Source of the DNA: Pseudoxanthomonas suwonensis
GTDB lineage: Bacteria; Pseudomonadota; Gammaproteobacteria; Xanthomonadales; Xanthomonadaceae
DNA: 64,000 bases
Direction of reading: 5' to 3'
Assembly: GCF_010093235.1 (NCBI RefSeq)
Contig: NZ_PDWP01000012.1
Location: 1 to 64,000 of the forward strand
In this document: positions 46,075 to 52,576 of the stretch, piece after piece
Position numbering within the stretch: the first letter of the stretch is position 1
Layout: every line of letters starts with the position of its first letter
Translations under genes and position numbers: made by a program
The notes under the pieces: model-generated
What the model was told of the DNA's origin: nothing
The model's database searches: none
Seen by the model: only the letters and a program-made list of their open reading frames with translations

Positions 46075-46112
46075 TTCCCCACCGTTTTCCGTTACCAAGC
46101 CCGGAGTTGTCC

Positions 46113-48704
46113 ATGTTGGAAGCCTACCGCCACCACGTCGCCGAGCGCGCAGCCCTCGGCATCCCGCCGCTGCCGCTGTCGGCGCAGCAGACCGCCGAGG
46201 TCATCGAGCTGCTGAAGAACCCGCCGGCGGGCGAGGAGCAGTTCCTGGTCGACCTGCTCACCAACCGCGTCCCGGCCGGCGTCGACGACGCCGCCAAGGT
46301 CAAGGCTTCCTACCTGGCCGCGCTGGCCTTCGGCAGCGAGAAGAACCCGCTGATCAGCCGCGAGCGCGCCACCGAGCTGCTGGGCACCATGCTCGGCGGC
46401 TACAACGTCTCGCCGCTGATCGAGCTGCTGGACGACGCCACCGTCGGCGCCATCGCCGCCGAGGGCCTGAAGAAGACCCTGCTGGTGTTCGATGCCTTCC
46501 ACGACGTGGAAGAGAAGGCCAAGGCCGGCAACGCCAACGCCAAGGCGGTGCTGCAGAGCTGGGCCGACGCCGAGTGGTTCACCAGCAAGCCGGAAGTGCC
46601 GCAGAGCCTGACCATCACCGTGTTCAAGGTGCCGGGCGAGACCAACACCGACGACCTGTCGCCGGCCCCGGACGCCACCACCCGTCCGGATATCCCGATG
46701 CACGCCCTGGCGATGCTGAAGAACAAGCGTCCGGATGCGCCGTTCCAGCCGGAAGAGGACGGCAAGCGCGGCCCGATCGGCGAGATCCTCAAGCTCAAGG
46801 AGAAGGGCCACCTGGTCGCCTATGTCGGCGACGTGGTCGGCACCGGCTCCTCGCGCAAGTCCGCCACCAACTCGGTGCTGTGGTGGACCGGCGACGACAT
46901 CCCGTTCATCCCGAACAAGCGCGCCGGCGGCGTGTGCCTGGGCGGCAAGATCGCCCCGATCTTCTACAACACCATGGAAGACGCCGGCGCCCTGCCGATC
47001 GAGCTTGACGTGTCGAAGATGGACCACGGCGACGTGGTCGAGCTGCGCCCGTACGAGGGCAAGGCGCTGAAGAACGGCGAGGTGATCGCCGAGTTCAAGG
47101 TCAAGTCCGACGTGCTGTTCGACGAGGTGCGCGCCGGTGGCCGCATCCCGCTGATCATCGGCCGCGGCCTGACCACCAAGGCCCGCGAGTCGCTGGGCCT
47201 GCCGGCCTCGGACCTGTTCCGCCTGCCGCAGCAGCCGGCCGATTCCGGCAAGGGCTACTCGCTGGCGCAGAAGATGGTCGGTCGCGCCTGCGGCCTGCCG
47301 GAAGGCAAGGGCGTGCGCCCGGGCACCTACTGCGAGCCGAAGATGACCTCGGTCGGTTCCCAGGACACCACCGGCCCGATGACCCGCGACGAGCTGAAGG
47401 ACCTGGCCTGCCTGGGCTTCTCGGCCGACCTGGTGATGCAGTCGTTCTGCCACACCGCGGCTTATCCGAAGCCGGTCGACGTCAAGACCCACCACACCCT
47501 GCCGGAGTTCATCTCCACCCGCGGTGGCATCTCCCTGCGTCCGGGCGACGGCGTGATCCACAGCTGGCTCAACCGCATGCTGCTGCCCGACACCGTCGGC
47601 ACCGGCGGCGACTCCCACACCCGCTTCCCGGTGGGCATCTCGTTCCCGGCCGGCTCGGGCCTGGTCGCCTTCGCCGCGGCCACCGGCGTGATGCCGCTGG
47701 ACATGCCGGAGTCGGTGCTGGTCCGCTTCAAGGGCCAGATGCAGCCGGGCGTCACCCTGCGCGACCTGGTCAACGCGATCCCGCTGTACGCCATCAAGTC
47801 CGGCCTGCTGACCGTGGCCAAGGCCGGCAAGAAGAACATCTTCTCCGGCCGCATCCTCGAGATCGAAGGCCTGCCGCAGCTGAAGGTCGAGCAGGCGTTC
47901 GAGCTGTCCGACGCCTCGGCCGAGCGCTCGGCCGCCGGCTGCACCGTGCGCCTGGACAAGGAGCCGATCATCGAATACCTCAACAGCAACATCGTGCTGC
48001 TGAAGAACATGATCGCCGAGGGCTACCAGGACGCCCGCTCGCTGGCCCGCCGCATCAGGAAGATGGAGGAGTGGCTGGCCAACCCGCAGCTGCTGGAGCC
48101 GGATGCCGACGCTGAGTACGCCGCGGTCATCGAGATCGACCTCAACGAGATCGTCGAGCCGATCGTGGCCTGCCCGAACGACCCGGACGACGTGAAGAGC
48201 CTGTCCGAGGTGGCCGGCACCAAGATCGACGAGGTTTTCATCGGGTCGTGCATGACCAACATCGGCCACTTCCGCGCCGCGGCCAAGCTGCTGGAAGGCA
48301 AGCGCGACATCCCGACCCGCCTGTGGGTCGCGCCGCCGACCAAGATGGACGCCTCCGAGCTGACCAAGGAAGGCCACTACGGCACCTTCGGCGTGGCCGG
48401 CGCGCGCATGGAAATGCCCGGCTGCTCGCTGTGCATGGGCAACCAGGCCCAGGTGCGCGAGGGCGCCACGGTGTTCTCCACCTCCACCCGCAACTTCCCG
48501 AACCGCCTGGGCCGCAACACCAACGTGTTCCTGGGTTCGGCGGAGCTGGCGGCGATCTGCTCGCGCCTGGGCAAGATCCCGTCCCGCGAGGAGTACATGG
48601 CCGACATCGGCGTGATCAACGAGAAGGGCGCCGAGATCTACCGCTACATGAACTTCGACCAGATCGAGGAGTACCGGAAGACGGCCGAGACCGTGGCCGC
48701 CTGA
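46113..48704 (+). CDS. acnB: Aconitate hydratase B
   Basis: The main TCA-cycle aconitase (bifunctional with 2-methylisocitrate dehydratase in many bacteria), cluster-sensitive and RNA-binding as apoprotein. 863 residues: HEAT-like N-terminal domain ([37 protein letters not shown]), swivelling domain ([22 protein letters not shown]), then the cluster domains with [57 protein letters not shown] and [13 protein letters not shown] supplying the cysteines. The start is the ATG at 46113 with GGAG upstream. It is directly downstream of the toxin gene and could be read through from that promoter. Confidence 0.97.
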
Positions 48705-48726
48705 TCCATCCGGCACCGCTGTACGG

Positions 48727-48758
48727 AACGCCCGGCCTTGCGCCGGGCGTTTCCTTTT
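48727..48758 (+). terminator. Intrinsic terminator of acnB
   Basis: AACGCCCGGC-CTTGC-GCCGGGCGTT followed by TCCTTTT, starting about 20 bp after the acnB stop. Confidence 0.85.
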
Positions 48759-48763
48759 GCGGG

Positions 48764-49192
48764 TCAGGCGGGCAGGGCCTCGTCGGCGTAGGCGGAAGCG
48801 AATTCCCCGGAAGGCGGGATCGGCTGGATCACGTCGACCAGCACGCCGTTGGGGGCGGCGGTGATGAAGTGGCGCTGGCCGAAGGCTTCGTCGCGCAGGT
48901 CCAGCAGCACCGGCAGGCCTGCAGCGGGCAGCCGGGCGCACTCGGCGTCCACGTCCTCGACCTCGAAGTTGAGCAGCAGGCCACCTGCGTGGCGGTCGCG
49001 TGCCACGGCGGGGATGGGGGAATGGCCTGCCGCAAGTACGGCCAGGTTGACCTCCGGCTGGCCCTCCAGCTGCAGGTGCACGTACCAGTCGGAAGTGAAC
49101 AGTGGACGGAAGCCGAAGTGCCGCTGGTAGAAGTCGGCGGTGGCGGCGACATCGCTGGCCTGGATGACGGGGTAGTAGCTGCTGACCTTCAT
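48764..49192 (-). CDS. VOC (glyoxalase/bleomycin-resistance) family protein
   Basis: A 142-residue protein with two beta-alpha-beta-beta-beta modules of the vicinal oxygen chelate fold: [39 protein letters not shown] and [55 protein letters not shown]. Members are metal-dependent isomerases or dioxygenases, or binding proteins that sequester drugs; the substrate is not known. The ATG is at 49190-49192. It is divergent from a TetR regulator across a symmetrical operator region, so expression is very likely controlled by that repressor and its ligand. Confidence 0.88.
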
Positions 49193-49210
49193 GGCTTGCC
49201 TCCGTTGACC

Positions 49211-49265
49211 CATAAACATACAGTCTGTATGTAATTCGACGATACATACAGACTGTATGTTTATG
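49211..49265. promoter_or_regulatory. TetR operator: 22-bp perfect inverted repeat with nested palindromes
   Basis: The arm at 49211-49232 is repeated in perfect inversion at 49244-49265 around an 11-bp spacer. Each arm itself contains a 17-bp palindrome: ACATACAG-T-CTGTATGT (49216-49232) and ACATACAG-A-CTGTATGT (49244-49260). The two sites are 28 bp centre to centre and fill the 84-bp gap between the divergent VOC and TetR genes, so one repressor would control both. Confidence 0.85.
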
Positions 49266-49276
49266 CAAGAAGTGAC

Positions 49277-49927: not shown

Positions 49928-52576
49928 TCAGGCCTTGCGCACCAGCTCGATGATCAGCCGCTGCAGCGCCGGATCGTCGTCCAGGCTGCCGTGGGTGGCG
50001 GCGGTGGTGCTGCGGCTGGCGCTGCCATCCAGCCCCAGTTCGCTGGGCAGGCGGGTGATCTCGCTGGCCGGGCTGGCCACGGCCATCATCCGCGCGCCCC
50101 AGGGCAGGGTGGCGCGCGCCGGGACCAGGTGCCGCTCCAGGCCCAGCAGCGGCGTCTCGCGCCGGTCCTCGAAGGCGCGCGATACCAGGTACAGCAGCGA
50201 GTGCCCATACGGCCTGCAGGTCGGGTCGGCGCGCTCGGCCGCATCCGACAGGTGCGCCACCAGCATGCGGGTGCCTGCCTTCAGCGCGGCCTTGCCCAGG
50301 GTGTGGTCGAACTCGTCGATGCGTACCGCCGGGGCGATCAGGCTGGCCGTGCGCAGGTCGAAGCCCTCGGCCGCCATGGTCGCGCCCAGGTGCGAGTGCA
50401 GGATGGCGCCGGCCGAATGCCCGACCAGGTGCAGGCGCAGCGCCGGCAGGCCGTAGGCCCGGGCGTTGGCCCGGTACAGCGCGAGCAGCTGGCGGATGCC
50501 GGACTCGGGGCTCGTGCCGATGCGCAGTGCGTTCTGCTTCATTTCGCCCCACAGCGGGCGCCCCAGCGGCCGTGCCACCGACTCCACACGCTGGTTCCAC
50601 CATTCCTTCCAGCGCTCGCGCAGCTTGCGCAGCGTGCCGGCGGCGCGCTCCCGTTCCGGTGCCAGGCGGTCCTCGATCAGGTTGGAGAGCGTCTTGACCG
50701 CACCGGTCTCCCACATCAGGAACACCGGGAAGATCCGCTCCTCGTACAGCTTCGGCACCCAGCGCCGCGCCGAGCCGGCCGCCGCTTCCTCGTCGGTGAG
50801 CCCGCCATGGGCGTAGATGGCCACGTCCACTGCGCCGTCGGGTCCGATTTCCCAGCGGCGGCAGGCCTCGGCCAGGTGGATGCGCAGCAGCGCGTCCAGG
50901 GCCGAGGGCTGGGGGCGGAACTGGCCGCGCCGGCTCAGGCGGCCGTTGTTCTCCATGTTGATGATGAAGGGGGCGAGCTCGTGCGCGGCCAGGATCGGAT
51001 TGCGCGACACCACCGCGCAGCGGCCCTGGGCATCGGTGCGCAGCGAGGTGGCTTCGGCGATCGCCTCGTGCTCGGAGGTCACCACGCCCAGCTGCGCGAC
51101 CCAGCAGTCCATCGCGTTCTCCAGCCAGTCGCTGTAGCGCAGGACGGCCAGGCCGCCCTTGCCCCAGCGCGTTCCCCAGGAGTTGTGCACGATGAAGCCG
51201 TCGCGGGTGTAGCCGACGATGGCGAAGGCGTGGCCGGCGCCCGGATCGCCGCGCAGCCGCCGGATAAGCGGCAGGTCGGACGGATCCTCGGGCCGTGGCA
51301 GGGGCTCATCGCCGAGCAGCTCCTCCCAGCCGGCGTGGGTCCAGGCACTGGCGTAGACGGCGCCGACCTGGTCGATGGCCACGTGCATGTCGCGCAGCGA
51401 GCGCGGATCGATGCGGTAGTAGGCGCCAAGCGGGCGCTTGAGCGCGTCGGTCCACCAGTCCTCGCAGGCGTCGGCCTTCGGTTCGGGCATCGCCGGCTTC
51501 GGCCACAGGCGGGCGCTGGCGGCGCCGTGGCGTAGCCAGCCCTTGAGCGCGCCACGCAGCGAGGAGCCGATCCCGCTGTCGTTGCCGCTGCCGTCGTCCT
51601 CCTCGTCGGCCCACTCGTCGTAGCGGCGGGCCATGCTGTAGAGCATGTGCGGCGACACCGGTTCGACATGGCGGCCAGCGCGCACCAGCAGGTACTCGAT
51701 CACCGTGGCCAGTGCATAGCCGGTGCAGGCGCAGGTGTCGCCCTGGTCCAGGACCGGGCGCACGTCGTGCGGATAACGCACGTCGCGTGGCGCCGAGGAG
51801 ACCGGGGGCTGGTACTCCCAGTCGCGCAGGTCGACGCTGTCGGGACGGACGTTGAGGACCCGCCGCCGCTGCCTGCGCACCGATCCGGTGGGCGGGCGCG
51901 CCGCCAGGTCCGGCGCCGCCGGCTCCGGCCGCCCGGGCGGCAGCTGGCGCGTGCCGCGACCGGCGGCGCGGCCGCCCGCACTGCCGGCATGGCGGGCATA
52001 GGCCGCGGCGAGCTTGCCGTCGTAATCGTTCTGACGGTATCCGGGGCCGTTGTAGAGACGCGCGAAGCGCGCCCAGTCCTTGCGCCGCAACGGCAGCAGC
52101 AGAGGCGAACCCGGGCGGGCGATGAAACTGGCGAAGGCCTCCAGCTGGCCATCGGCCCCGGAGGACTGGGCCTCAACGAAGGCCCCGACGCAGTCGAAGC
52201 CGCACAGCGCGTAGTTGAAGCCCATGATCTGGAACGCGCCCCAGCTGGCCGACTGCATCGCCGCGGCGGCATCCAGCGCGGCGGCGCGGTCCAGCCGCTT
52301 CCATTCCCCGGCCAGCGACCCGGAATACTTCCTACGGTCCCATTGCGGATGGCTGAGGTTGGGATGCGAGGCGCCGTAGCGGCCTGCCGTCAGGCGATGG
52401 AAGACATGGCCCTCGAACAGGACCTTGGGCCGGCGGTCCGGCGCCGGAAGGAAGCCGCTGCCAGCCGACTCGACCTCGGCCACCGCGCGCAACGCCGCCA
52501 GTTCGACGTCCAGCCGCGCGGCCAGGCGCTCCCACATCTGCGGGGTGACGTCGCGCTCCAGTTCCTTCTGTTCCAT
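49928..52576 (-). CDS. Three-domain protein: N-acetylmuramidase + papain-like (C1) peptidase + alpha/beta hydrolase
   Basis: 882 residues joining three hydrolase folds. (1) About 10-195: endolysin-type N-acetylmuramidase resembling PF11860, with candidate catalytic Glu34/Glu36 (AVAEVESAGSGF), KVLFEGHVFHRLT and SASWGAFQIMGFN. (2) About 235-500: C1A papain fold with oxyanion Gln278, nucleophile Cys284 (DQGDTCACTGYALA), His449 (GAGHAFAIVGY) and Asn465 (VHNSWGTRWGKGG), entered through an Arg/Pro-rich linker (about 200-240). (3) About 580-800: alpha/beta hydrolase with IYAHGGL and nucleophile Ser721 in LVGHSAGAIL. No signal peptide is visible, so the route to any cell wall or extracellular target is unclear. 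All three sites look intact. No phage or secretion genes are adjacent. The DUF2939 gene 68 bp downstream may be cotranscribed. I do not know an established family with this architecture. Confidence 0.82.
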   Translation of the reverse strand: MEQKELERDVTPQMWERLAARLDVELAALRAVAEVESAGSGFLPAPDRRPKVLFEGHVFHRLTAGRYGASHPNLSHPQWDRRKYSGSLAGEWKRLDRAAALDAAAAMQSASWGAFQIMGFNYALCGFDCVGAFVEAQSSGADGQLEAFASFIARPGSPLLLPLRRKDWARFARLYNGPGYRQNDYDGKLAAAYARHAGSAGGRAAGRGTRQLPPGRPEPAAPDLAARPPTGSVRRQRRRVLNVRPDSVDLRDWEYQPPVSSAPRDVRYPHDVRPVLDQGDTCACTGYALATVIEYLLVRAGRHVEPVSPHMLYSMARRYDEWADEEDDGSGNDSGIGSSLRGALKGWLRHGAASARLWPKPAMPEPKADACEDWWTDALKRPLGAYYRIDPRSLRDMHVAIDQVGAVYASAWTHAGWEELLGDEPLPRPEDPSDLPLIRRLRGDPGAGHAFAIVGYTRDGFIVHNSWGTRWGKGGLAVLRYSDWLENAMDCWVAQLGVVTSEHEAIAEATSLRTDAQGRCAVVSRNPILAAHELAPFIINMENNGRLSRRGQFRPQPSALDALLRIHLAEACRRWEIGPDGAVDVAIYAHGGLTDEEAAAGSARRWVPKLYEERIFPVFLMWETGAVKTLSNLIEDRLAPERERAAGTLRKLRERWKEWWNQRVESVARPLGRPLWGEMKQNALRIGTSPESGIRQLLALYRANARAYGLPALRLHLVGHSAGAILHSHLGATMAAEGFDLRTASLIAPAVRIDEFDHTLGKAALKAGTRMLVAHLSDAAERADPTCRPYGHSLLYLVSRAFEDRRETPLLGLERHLVPARATLPWGARMMAVASPASEITRLPSELGLDGSASRSTTAATHGSLDDDPALQRLIIELVRKA

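Follow-up and report, generated by a model that had tools for sequence, protein, structure and literature searches.

Why would one chromosomal gene join a cell wall hydrolase, a protease, and an esterase-type enzyme in a single chain? The question is raised by a gene at positions 49928..52576 of the window, the 64,000-nucleotide stretch of Pseudoxanthomonas suwonensis DNA analyzed here. The gene and all its parts lie on the minus strand. The 882-aa product, residue i of which begins at window position 52576 − 3(i − 1), has the order muramidase, linker, C1 peptidase, and alpha/beta hydrolase (ABH).

The first domain, residues 8 to 198 (51983..52555), is an endolysin-type N-acetylmuramidase with catalytic Glu36. 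It matched Pfam family PF11860 with 210.2 bits against a cut-off of 22.3 (E value of 3.5e-62), covering profile positions 1 to 174 of 175, and a PHROGs endolysin family at 5.4e-69. In alignments to structures 5nm7, 7q4s, and 7rum, Glu36 was the equivalent of Glu101 of AP3gp15. The middle domain, residues 241 to 500 (51077..51856), is a papain-like C1 peptidase with Gln278, Cys284, His449, and Asn465. Its Pfam Peptidase_C1 score was just below threshold (20.2 bits versus a cut-off of 20.7), and relatives L085, L087, L114, L120, and L122 score above that cut-off. Both the Gln-Cys-His-Asn active site and the papain fold characteristic of C1A peptidases are present, a PHROGs peptidase family matched residues 440 to 483, and, when the predicted model was used for a structure search, the 50 matches listed were all on the C1 part and none on the ABH. 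The four catalytic residues are invariant in 70/70 aligned C1-ABH proteins.

The last domain, residues 520 to 882 (49931..51019), contains a Y588-x-HGG oxyanion-type motif, Ser721, Glu781 or Asp784 as the acid, and His862. In the model, a strand at residues 712 to 720 ends at Ser721 and is followed by a helix at 723 to 736, as expected of a nucleophile elbow. With this predicted elbow and with the acid and histidine of a triad, for which Glu781 and Asp784 are the candidate acids, the domain is assigned to the alpha/beta hydrolases. Ser721, Glu781, Asp784, His862, and the HGG-type motif are invariant in 76/76 aligned domains. No Pfam cut-off was reached when Abhydrolase_3, DUF900, and Lipase_3 were considered (Abhydrolase_3 came to 19.6 bits versus 25), and no other Pfam family matched. 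A PDB profile search returned a single chain at an E value of 0.46, and NCBIfam profiles gave no match to the window protein at E values up to 1. DUF900 was matched by 16 of the 76 ABH relatives at E values up to 0.01; the best of them (3.8e-8) is probably above the cut-off of that family, and the ABH is likely kin to DUF900. The domain probably acts on lipid and may be a lipase or phospholipase.

The original prediction had read these three domains from the letters alone and considered all visible catalytic residues intact. Pfam, PHROGs, and structure alignment bear out the domain calls. The ten catalytic residues checked, Glu36 included, are all kept in 14/14 orthologues, in line with the invariance in the wider alignments. 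At the level of sequence, the presence in one chain of three domains with intact predicted catalytic residues is thus established.

To compare constraint along the chain, we used dN/dS-like ratios, which are simple Nei-Gojobori counts in GC-rich genes and are to be read as relative values only. In nine comparisons within the genus (L003 to L011), the ratio was 0.17 to 0.34 for the muramidase, 0.25 to 0.38 for C1, 0.32 to 0.62 for the ABH, and 0.56 to 1.01 for the linker. Four wider comparisons (L013, L060, L062, and L063) gave 0.30 to 0.38, 0.25 to 0.52, 0.31 to 0.67, and 0.52 to 0.88, respectively. The linker is therefore less constrained than the domains, and the ABH is the least constrained of the three domains. 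Compared to the 99% identical L002, the ABH had a ratio of 0.74, a value that reflects very few changes. The linker itself, residues 199 to 240 (51857..51982), is Arg/Pro-rich and disordered, with pLDDT below 50 at residues 201 to 236. A PGR motif at residues 214 to 216 (51929..51937) is found in 11/11 muramidase-type proteins examined, whose linkers are variable otherwise. In GH19-type relatives, the linker carries an [LF]-x-R-G-x-[ED] motif in 10/12 proteins (9/11 without the duplicate L101), a count from which L175 and L176 were left out; the motif is absent from L122 and L123. These motifs may be binding or cleavage sites.

Close relatives of the window protein are from Pseudoxanthomonas. 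The gene was matched in 13 of 16 other genomes of the genus and gave no match in 3. It is a single open frame in 10 of the 13; in the other three, it is spread over more than one contig, truncated at a contig end, or interrupted by broken frames, the last being the case in Pseudoxanthomonas NC8 (L064/L040), whose assembly completeness is 57%. When 14 loci of the genus were read, sbcB was found on one side in 12, acnB on the other in 11, and at least one of the two in 14/14: L035 has acnB and lacks the sbcB side within ~5 kb, and at L030, the sbcB side is present and acnB is missing within ~7 kb. The genes lying between the window gene and acnB vary among these loci. In genome G009, sbcB is 92% identical and DUF2939 is followed by acnB after ~140 bases, with no match to the window gene, the TetR gene, or the glyoxalase gene. 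At L038, from another genus, none of the window neighbours was found within the 19 kb read. Synteny in the genus together with absence from some genomes points to an inherited, dispensable chromosomal gene that is not mobile.

The ten window neighbours, one of them a TetR gene adjoining the window gene, are ordinary by Pfam and form a housekeeping context; no phage, holin, trypsin, NucA, STAND, EAD-type, or inhibitor-type gene is among them. This agrees with the earlier statement that no phage or secretion genes adjoin the gene. A mobile or phage gene is unlikely given the genus synteny and the lack of a full-length phage match to the C1-ABH part: a phage search with that part gave only short, weak matches in 18 records, none covering 80%. 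A search with the whole protein returned 633 records, and many phage endolysins match its muramidase part by itself. One IMG/VR contig of 28 kb (L150), which may be phage or misassigned host DNA, carries a C1-ABH gene. DUF2939 was considered as an immunity partner and rejected. It is present at 11/14 genus loci; of the others, L041 ends inside the gene, and L035 and L036 have the gene but no DUF2939. Three genomes that lack the gene retain DUF2939, which is thus no obligate partner. Long antisense open frames lie over real genes of the window (46092-49268, 49991-51535, and others); such frames are expected in GC-rich DNA and are no evidence of genes.

If the three enzymes act on a cell, it has to be asked on whose. 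A hydropathy scan found an N-terminal hydrophobic segment or export signal in 0/90 family proteins, a set that includes some chains cut at contig edges (L088, L091, and L098); for chains with a first domain beginning within the first five residues, only the full chain was assessed. Nor was any transmembrane or holin-like segment seen by hydropathy. The absence of a signal peptide, as originally predicted, is borne out. The type VI secretion system (T6SS) sheath family PF05943, used as the single marker of T6SS, is absent from the window genome (G000) and from 15/16 other genomes of the genus, 12 of which have the gene. VirB4, the type IV secretion system (T4SS) ATPase family PF03135 and likewise a single marker, is absent from the window genome; of 11 other genomes of the genus, a single one has it, and the window gene is missing there. 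Delivery by T6SS or T4SS is therefore unlikely for this genus.

T6SS effectors include muramidase, GH19, and amidase domains, and by this likeness the protein might be a toxin injected into other cells via a type VI, type IV, or contractile system. With PF05943 absent here and from 15/16 other genomes, PF03135 absent here and from 10/11 others, and no Pfam delivery domain in the window chain, we consider such a role highly improbable. The delivered effector proposed in the original prediction is accordingly not supported: the check it had called for, co-occurrence of homologues with type VI genes, yielded 12 gene-bearing genomes of the genus without PF05943. The accessible part of the work on TseP, a chimeric T6SS wall effector (PMC11893102), describes more than one wall-cutting activity per chain, in which the window protein, with its several enzymes, resembles it. 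Unlike TseP, the window protein has no T6SS sheath gene in its genome, and protease and esterase-type domains replace the second wall hydrolase.

The same lack of export signals is compatible with an inactive cytoplasmic enzyme store that is freed when the cell dies of other causes and then digests neighbours, debris, or a predator. Here, the protein itself would trigger no lysis and would serve as a public good or in posthumous antagonism. Three broad predicted degradative activities fit such a store, as do the solitary position of the gene on the chromosome, where the adjoining TetR gene is the only regulator seen, and the groundwater named in records of some relatives. However, a living cell would have to keep a cytoplasmic protease and esterase in check, and the ten neighbours include no inhibitor-type gene; nor is it obvious why a pure store should need its three enzymes fused. 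We regard this explanation as possible but rather doubtful.

The wider family bears on the choice. A single genome scan confirmed 495 relatives; the 80 best were retained, so that this sample leans toward the window protein. Among 116 ABH domains, the architectures were C1-ABH (75), GH19-C1-ABH (13), muramidase-C1-ABH (10), Amidase_2-ABH-caspase (10), ABH alone (7), and ABH-caspase (1). Pfam confirmed GH19, Amidase_2, caspase C14, and Trypsin_2 on sampled chains. An N-terminal wall hydrolase is thus present in 33/116 proteins and belongs to one of three unrelated kinds, muramidase, GH19, or Amidase_2. In 11/116 proteins, caspase C14 replaces C1, with C1 located before the ABH and caspase after it. 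By Pfam, neither caspase C14 nor Amidase_2 occurs in the window protein, and both occur in the ABH-sharing relatives L044 and L109. Cut, broken, or duplicate copies (L059, L064, L090, L091, and L101) were left out of the ABH set A4; L059, L090, and L101 were also left out of the tree, and L064 was left out of the counts.

In the ABH tree, the muramidase type forms one clade (SH-aLRT 99). A single clade of GH19 fusions was rejected (AU p 0.00027), as was a single origin of all wall fusions (AU p 1.7e-9). At least five changes between wall-fused and not wall-fused states, which may be gains or losses, are required on this tree. The change count and the AU tests were made without L098, which starts at a contig edge. 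In evenly drawn genomes, the ABH was found in 15/398 from the phylum of the window genome, 4/345 from that of G453 (Hymenobacter), 11/297 from that of G454 (an acidobacterium), and 3/292 from that of G455 (a cyanobacterium), numbers that include the known positives G000, G002, G453, G454, and G455. With these five excluded, the draws contributed 28 loci, which were typed with our own profiles and some of which are cut by contig ends: 17 C1-ABH, 2 GH19-C1-ABH, 4 Amidase_2-ABH-caspase, and 5 shorter, diverged ABH-like proteins. By homology, the window protein is one version of a larger ABH family. Within the family, the alignments and tree demonstrate, as far as sequence can, that the same ABH has been fused with unrelated wall hydrolases on more than one occasion and is paired with cysteine proteases of two unrelated kinds, one or the other per chain. 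Nothing else points as strongly to a shared task of the ABH and wall cutting as this repeated fusion with unrelated wall hydrolases.

These data also bear on a housekeeping or metabolic role, in which the fusion would act in storage polymer, lipid, or peptide turnover and the muramidase domain would serve for binding only. Inheritance at one place among housekeeping genes and the 75/116 C1-ABH proteins without a wall domain agree with this idea, but retention of Glu36 in every orthologue and the separate fusions of unrelated wall hydrolases make it very unlikely.

The family pattern instead suggests a built-in cell-lysis device over an injected weapon. The explanation we favor, tentatively, is a self-contained cytoplasmic envelope-destroying enzyme turned on its own cell in programmed or infection-triggered lysis. 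As with phage endolysins that lack a signal peptide, a wall hydrolase in the cytosol does no harm as long as the inner membrane holds. The protein would stay idle in the cytoplasm with its muramidase out of reach of the wall until a trigger switches on the C1 peptidase, which may cut the disordered linker and release the muramidase. The ABH, as a lipase or phospholipase, would then open the inner membrane. The muramidase would reach the periplasm and cut peptidoglycan, and the cell would lyse, with the protease meanwhile degrading proteins. The whole would resemble a phage lysis cassette in one polypeptide, with the ABH in the place of the holin.

Self-directed lysis agrees with the kept catalytic residues, the repeated wall fusions, the caspase swap, the lack of an export signal, the wall-hydrolase genes next to relatives at three loci (see below), the higher constraint on the domains than on the linker, and the absence of a T6SS sheath or VirB4 from the genome. 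Against it stand the lack of a linked sensor or regulator family among the neighbours of relatives, the ordinary character of the ten window neighbours, the 75/116 proteins without a wall hydrolase, the lack of a transmembrane or holin-like segment by hydropathy, the absence of a PADLOC match, the 3/16 other genomes of the genus without the gene, and the position of the ABH as the least constrained domain. Of the roles that had been proposed, lysis or self-lysis agrees best with what is seen across the family. The disordered linker, which keeps its PGR motif, may be the place of the self-processing that had also been suggested.

If self-lysis is the function, a cell could lyse without a cassette of separate genes or a pore opened by a separate protease, since one chromosomal gene would suffice, and the 495 confirmed relatives would be test cases. 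As both the wall hydrolase and the protease are swapped around a constant ABH, the ABH should come first in assays. The architecture also lends itself naturally to the development of multi-enzyme lysins. A broader proposition, which we put forward with considerable doubt, is that the family forms a widespread class of bacterial lysis executors. Their core would be an ABH lipase that shares its chain with a cysteine protease of papain or caspase type and is activated by that protease. Wall hydrolases would have been grafted onto it repeatedly, and the resulting polypeptide, able to take apart membrane, wall, and proteins, would be a single-chain counterpart of lytic cell death.

Neither the C1-ABH family nor its muramidase and GH19 forms were found in the open-access literature searched, which also touched parts of PMC8195603 and PMC10380794. 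Four Amidase_2-metacaspase proteins, one of them with a GDSL lipase as well, were reported by Asplund-Samuelsson et al. (2012; PMC3501461), who in the accessible part of the article tie them to autolysis or to what seems to be a "highly destructive weapon." Those proteins likewise combine a wall hydrolase and a cysteine protease, once with a lipase, in one chain, and the ABH of the window protein recurs in the Amidase_2-caspase proteins of this analysis. In contrast, the window protein combines a muramidase with a papain-like peptidase, and the ABH, C1, muramidase, and GH19 forms are not mentioned in that part of the article. The suggestion of an undescribed activity thus holds, within the literature searched, for the C1 form; the caspase-amidase(-lipase) form has been known since 2012. 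With PF11860/DUF3380 phage endolysins such as AP3gp15 (5NM7; PMC5674055, in the portion available), the window protein shares the muramidase fold and a single catalytic Glu. It differs from them in that two further enzymes replace the cell wall–binding domain and in its chromosomal housekeeping context without phage neighbours. Xylellain (3OIS) of Xylella is a separate papain-type protease, whereas the C1 domain of the window protein is the middle of a three-enzyme chain.

The genes around relatives were examined as well. Three unfused relatives lie directly beside a wall-hydrolase gene: an amidase gene at L053, an M15 gene at L077, and a CHAP/NlpC gene at L051. A scan of ~8 kb on either side, made with profiles built from few seeds, found wall-hydrolase genes at only three unfused loci of the first set, to which L188 is added; most unfused loci show no such partner. 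The rarity of these neighbours, together with the 75/116 C1-ABH proteins without a wall hydrolase, indicates that the core function does not depend on the wall module. No universal operon partner was seen. Of 120 adjacent same-strand open reading frames (ORFs), 75 lie within 150 bases, nine loci having been left out, and no Pfam family occurs in more than 3 of these 75 (25 of 71 families listed), ORF calls being crude and some possibly spurious. The commonest adjacent families listed were CHAT (3, at three Hymenobacter loci) and alpha-amylase (3); those found twice include C14, Amidase_2, and GDSL lipase.

One further explanation adds a named trigger and overlaps with self-lysis: the protein may serve a conflict system, anti-phage or other, as an effector switched on by proteolysis, much as in the multi-peptidase systems that Kaur et al. 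described (2020; PMC7159879). Their "System 3," in the part of the paper at hand, comprises trypsin/NucA multi-peptidase systems with lysozyme and papain-like effectors, found mostly in alphaproteobacteria and proposed to be activated proteolytically; the combination of several peptidases with such effectors is a likeness to the window protein. The rhizobial relatives L051 and L203 have trypsin-like, subtilase, caspase, YEATS-associated-helix, or AAA genes nearby, and the same holds for L207 and L208, where companion GDSL or trypsin-type proteins occur without the ABH protein. However, no trypsin, NucA, STAND, EAD1, or other EAD-type gene is among the ten window neighbours, and System 3 effectors are, in the same part of that paper, separate EAD1 proteins. 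PADLOC models of anti-phage defence gave 0 families for the window protein at E values up to 1, and the gene occupies a fixed locus in the genus and no island. We therefore consider a conflict effector unlikely. The rhizobial loci look like conflict islands, and the Pseudoxanthomonas gene lies outside any such island.

Several loci of relatives deserve mention in their own right. On S. meliloti psymA (L051:6111-10843), a CHAP/NlpC gene, C1-ABH, and a GDSL lipase-caspase gene stand in a row, with SUMF1-type and VapBC genes near, and in R. etli, an amidase gene is followed by a C1-ABH gene. On a Thermoanaerobaculia contig (L077:5227-10428), subtilase, C1-ABH, and M15 peptidoglycan peptidase genes are packed together, with a 4-base overlap and a gap of ~14 bases by longest frames. 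On rhizobial plasmids (L203, L204, L205, L206, and L208), a GDSL esterase unrelated to the ABH occurs in proteins annotated as caspase, amidase, DUF882, or S8. Trypsin-like/serine protease, chitosanase, L,D-transpeptidase, or YEATS-associated-helix genes are near several rhizobial GDSL loci, and an AAA gene is present at a related S8-trypsin locus. A chain with fused GDSL-like and trypsin-like domains, by our own profiles, is encoded at L185:3010-5142, ~2 kb upstream of a C1-ABH gene. A free-standing muramidase gene (188 aa; L188:5586-6152) lies ~2.4 kb downstream of C1-ABH in one genome from the phylum of Hymenobacter. At three Hymenobacter loci (L109:10164-13610, L113:10119-13409, and L130:10218-13580), a CHAT-protease gene of ~1100 to 1150 aa starts ~40 to 61 bases after Amidase_2-ABH-caspase. 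The L109 CHAT protein also gave weak Pfam matches to LCAT/DUF7379 hydrolases and is perhaps a second esterase-protease chain.
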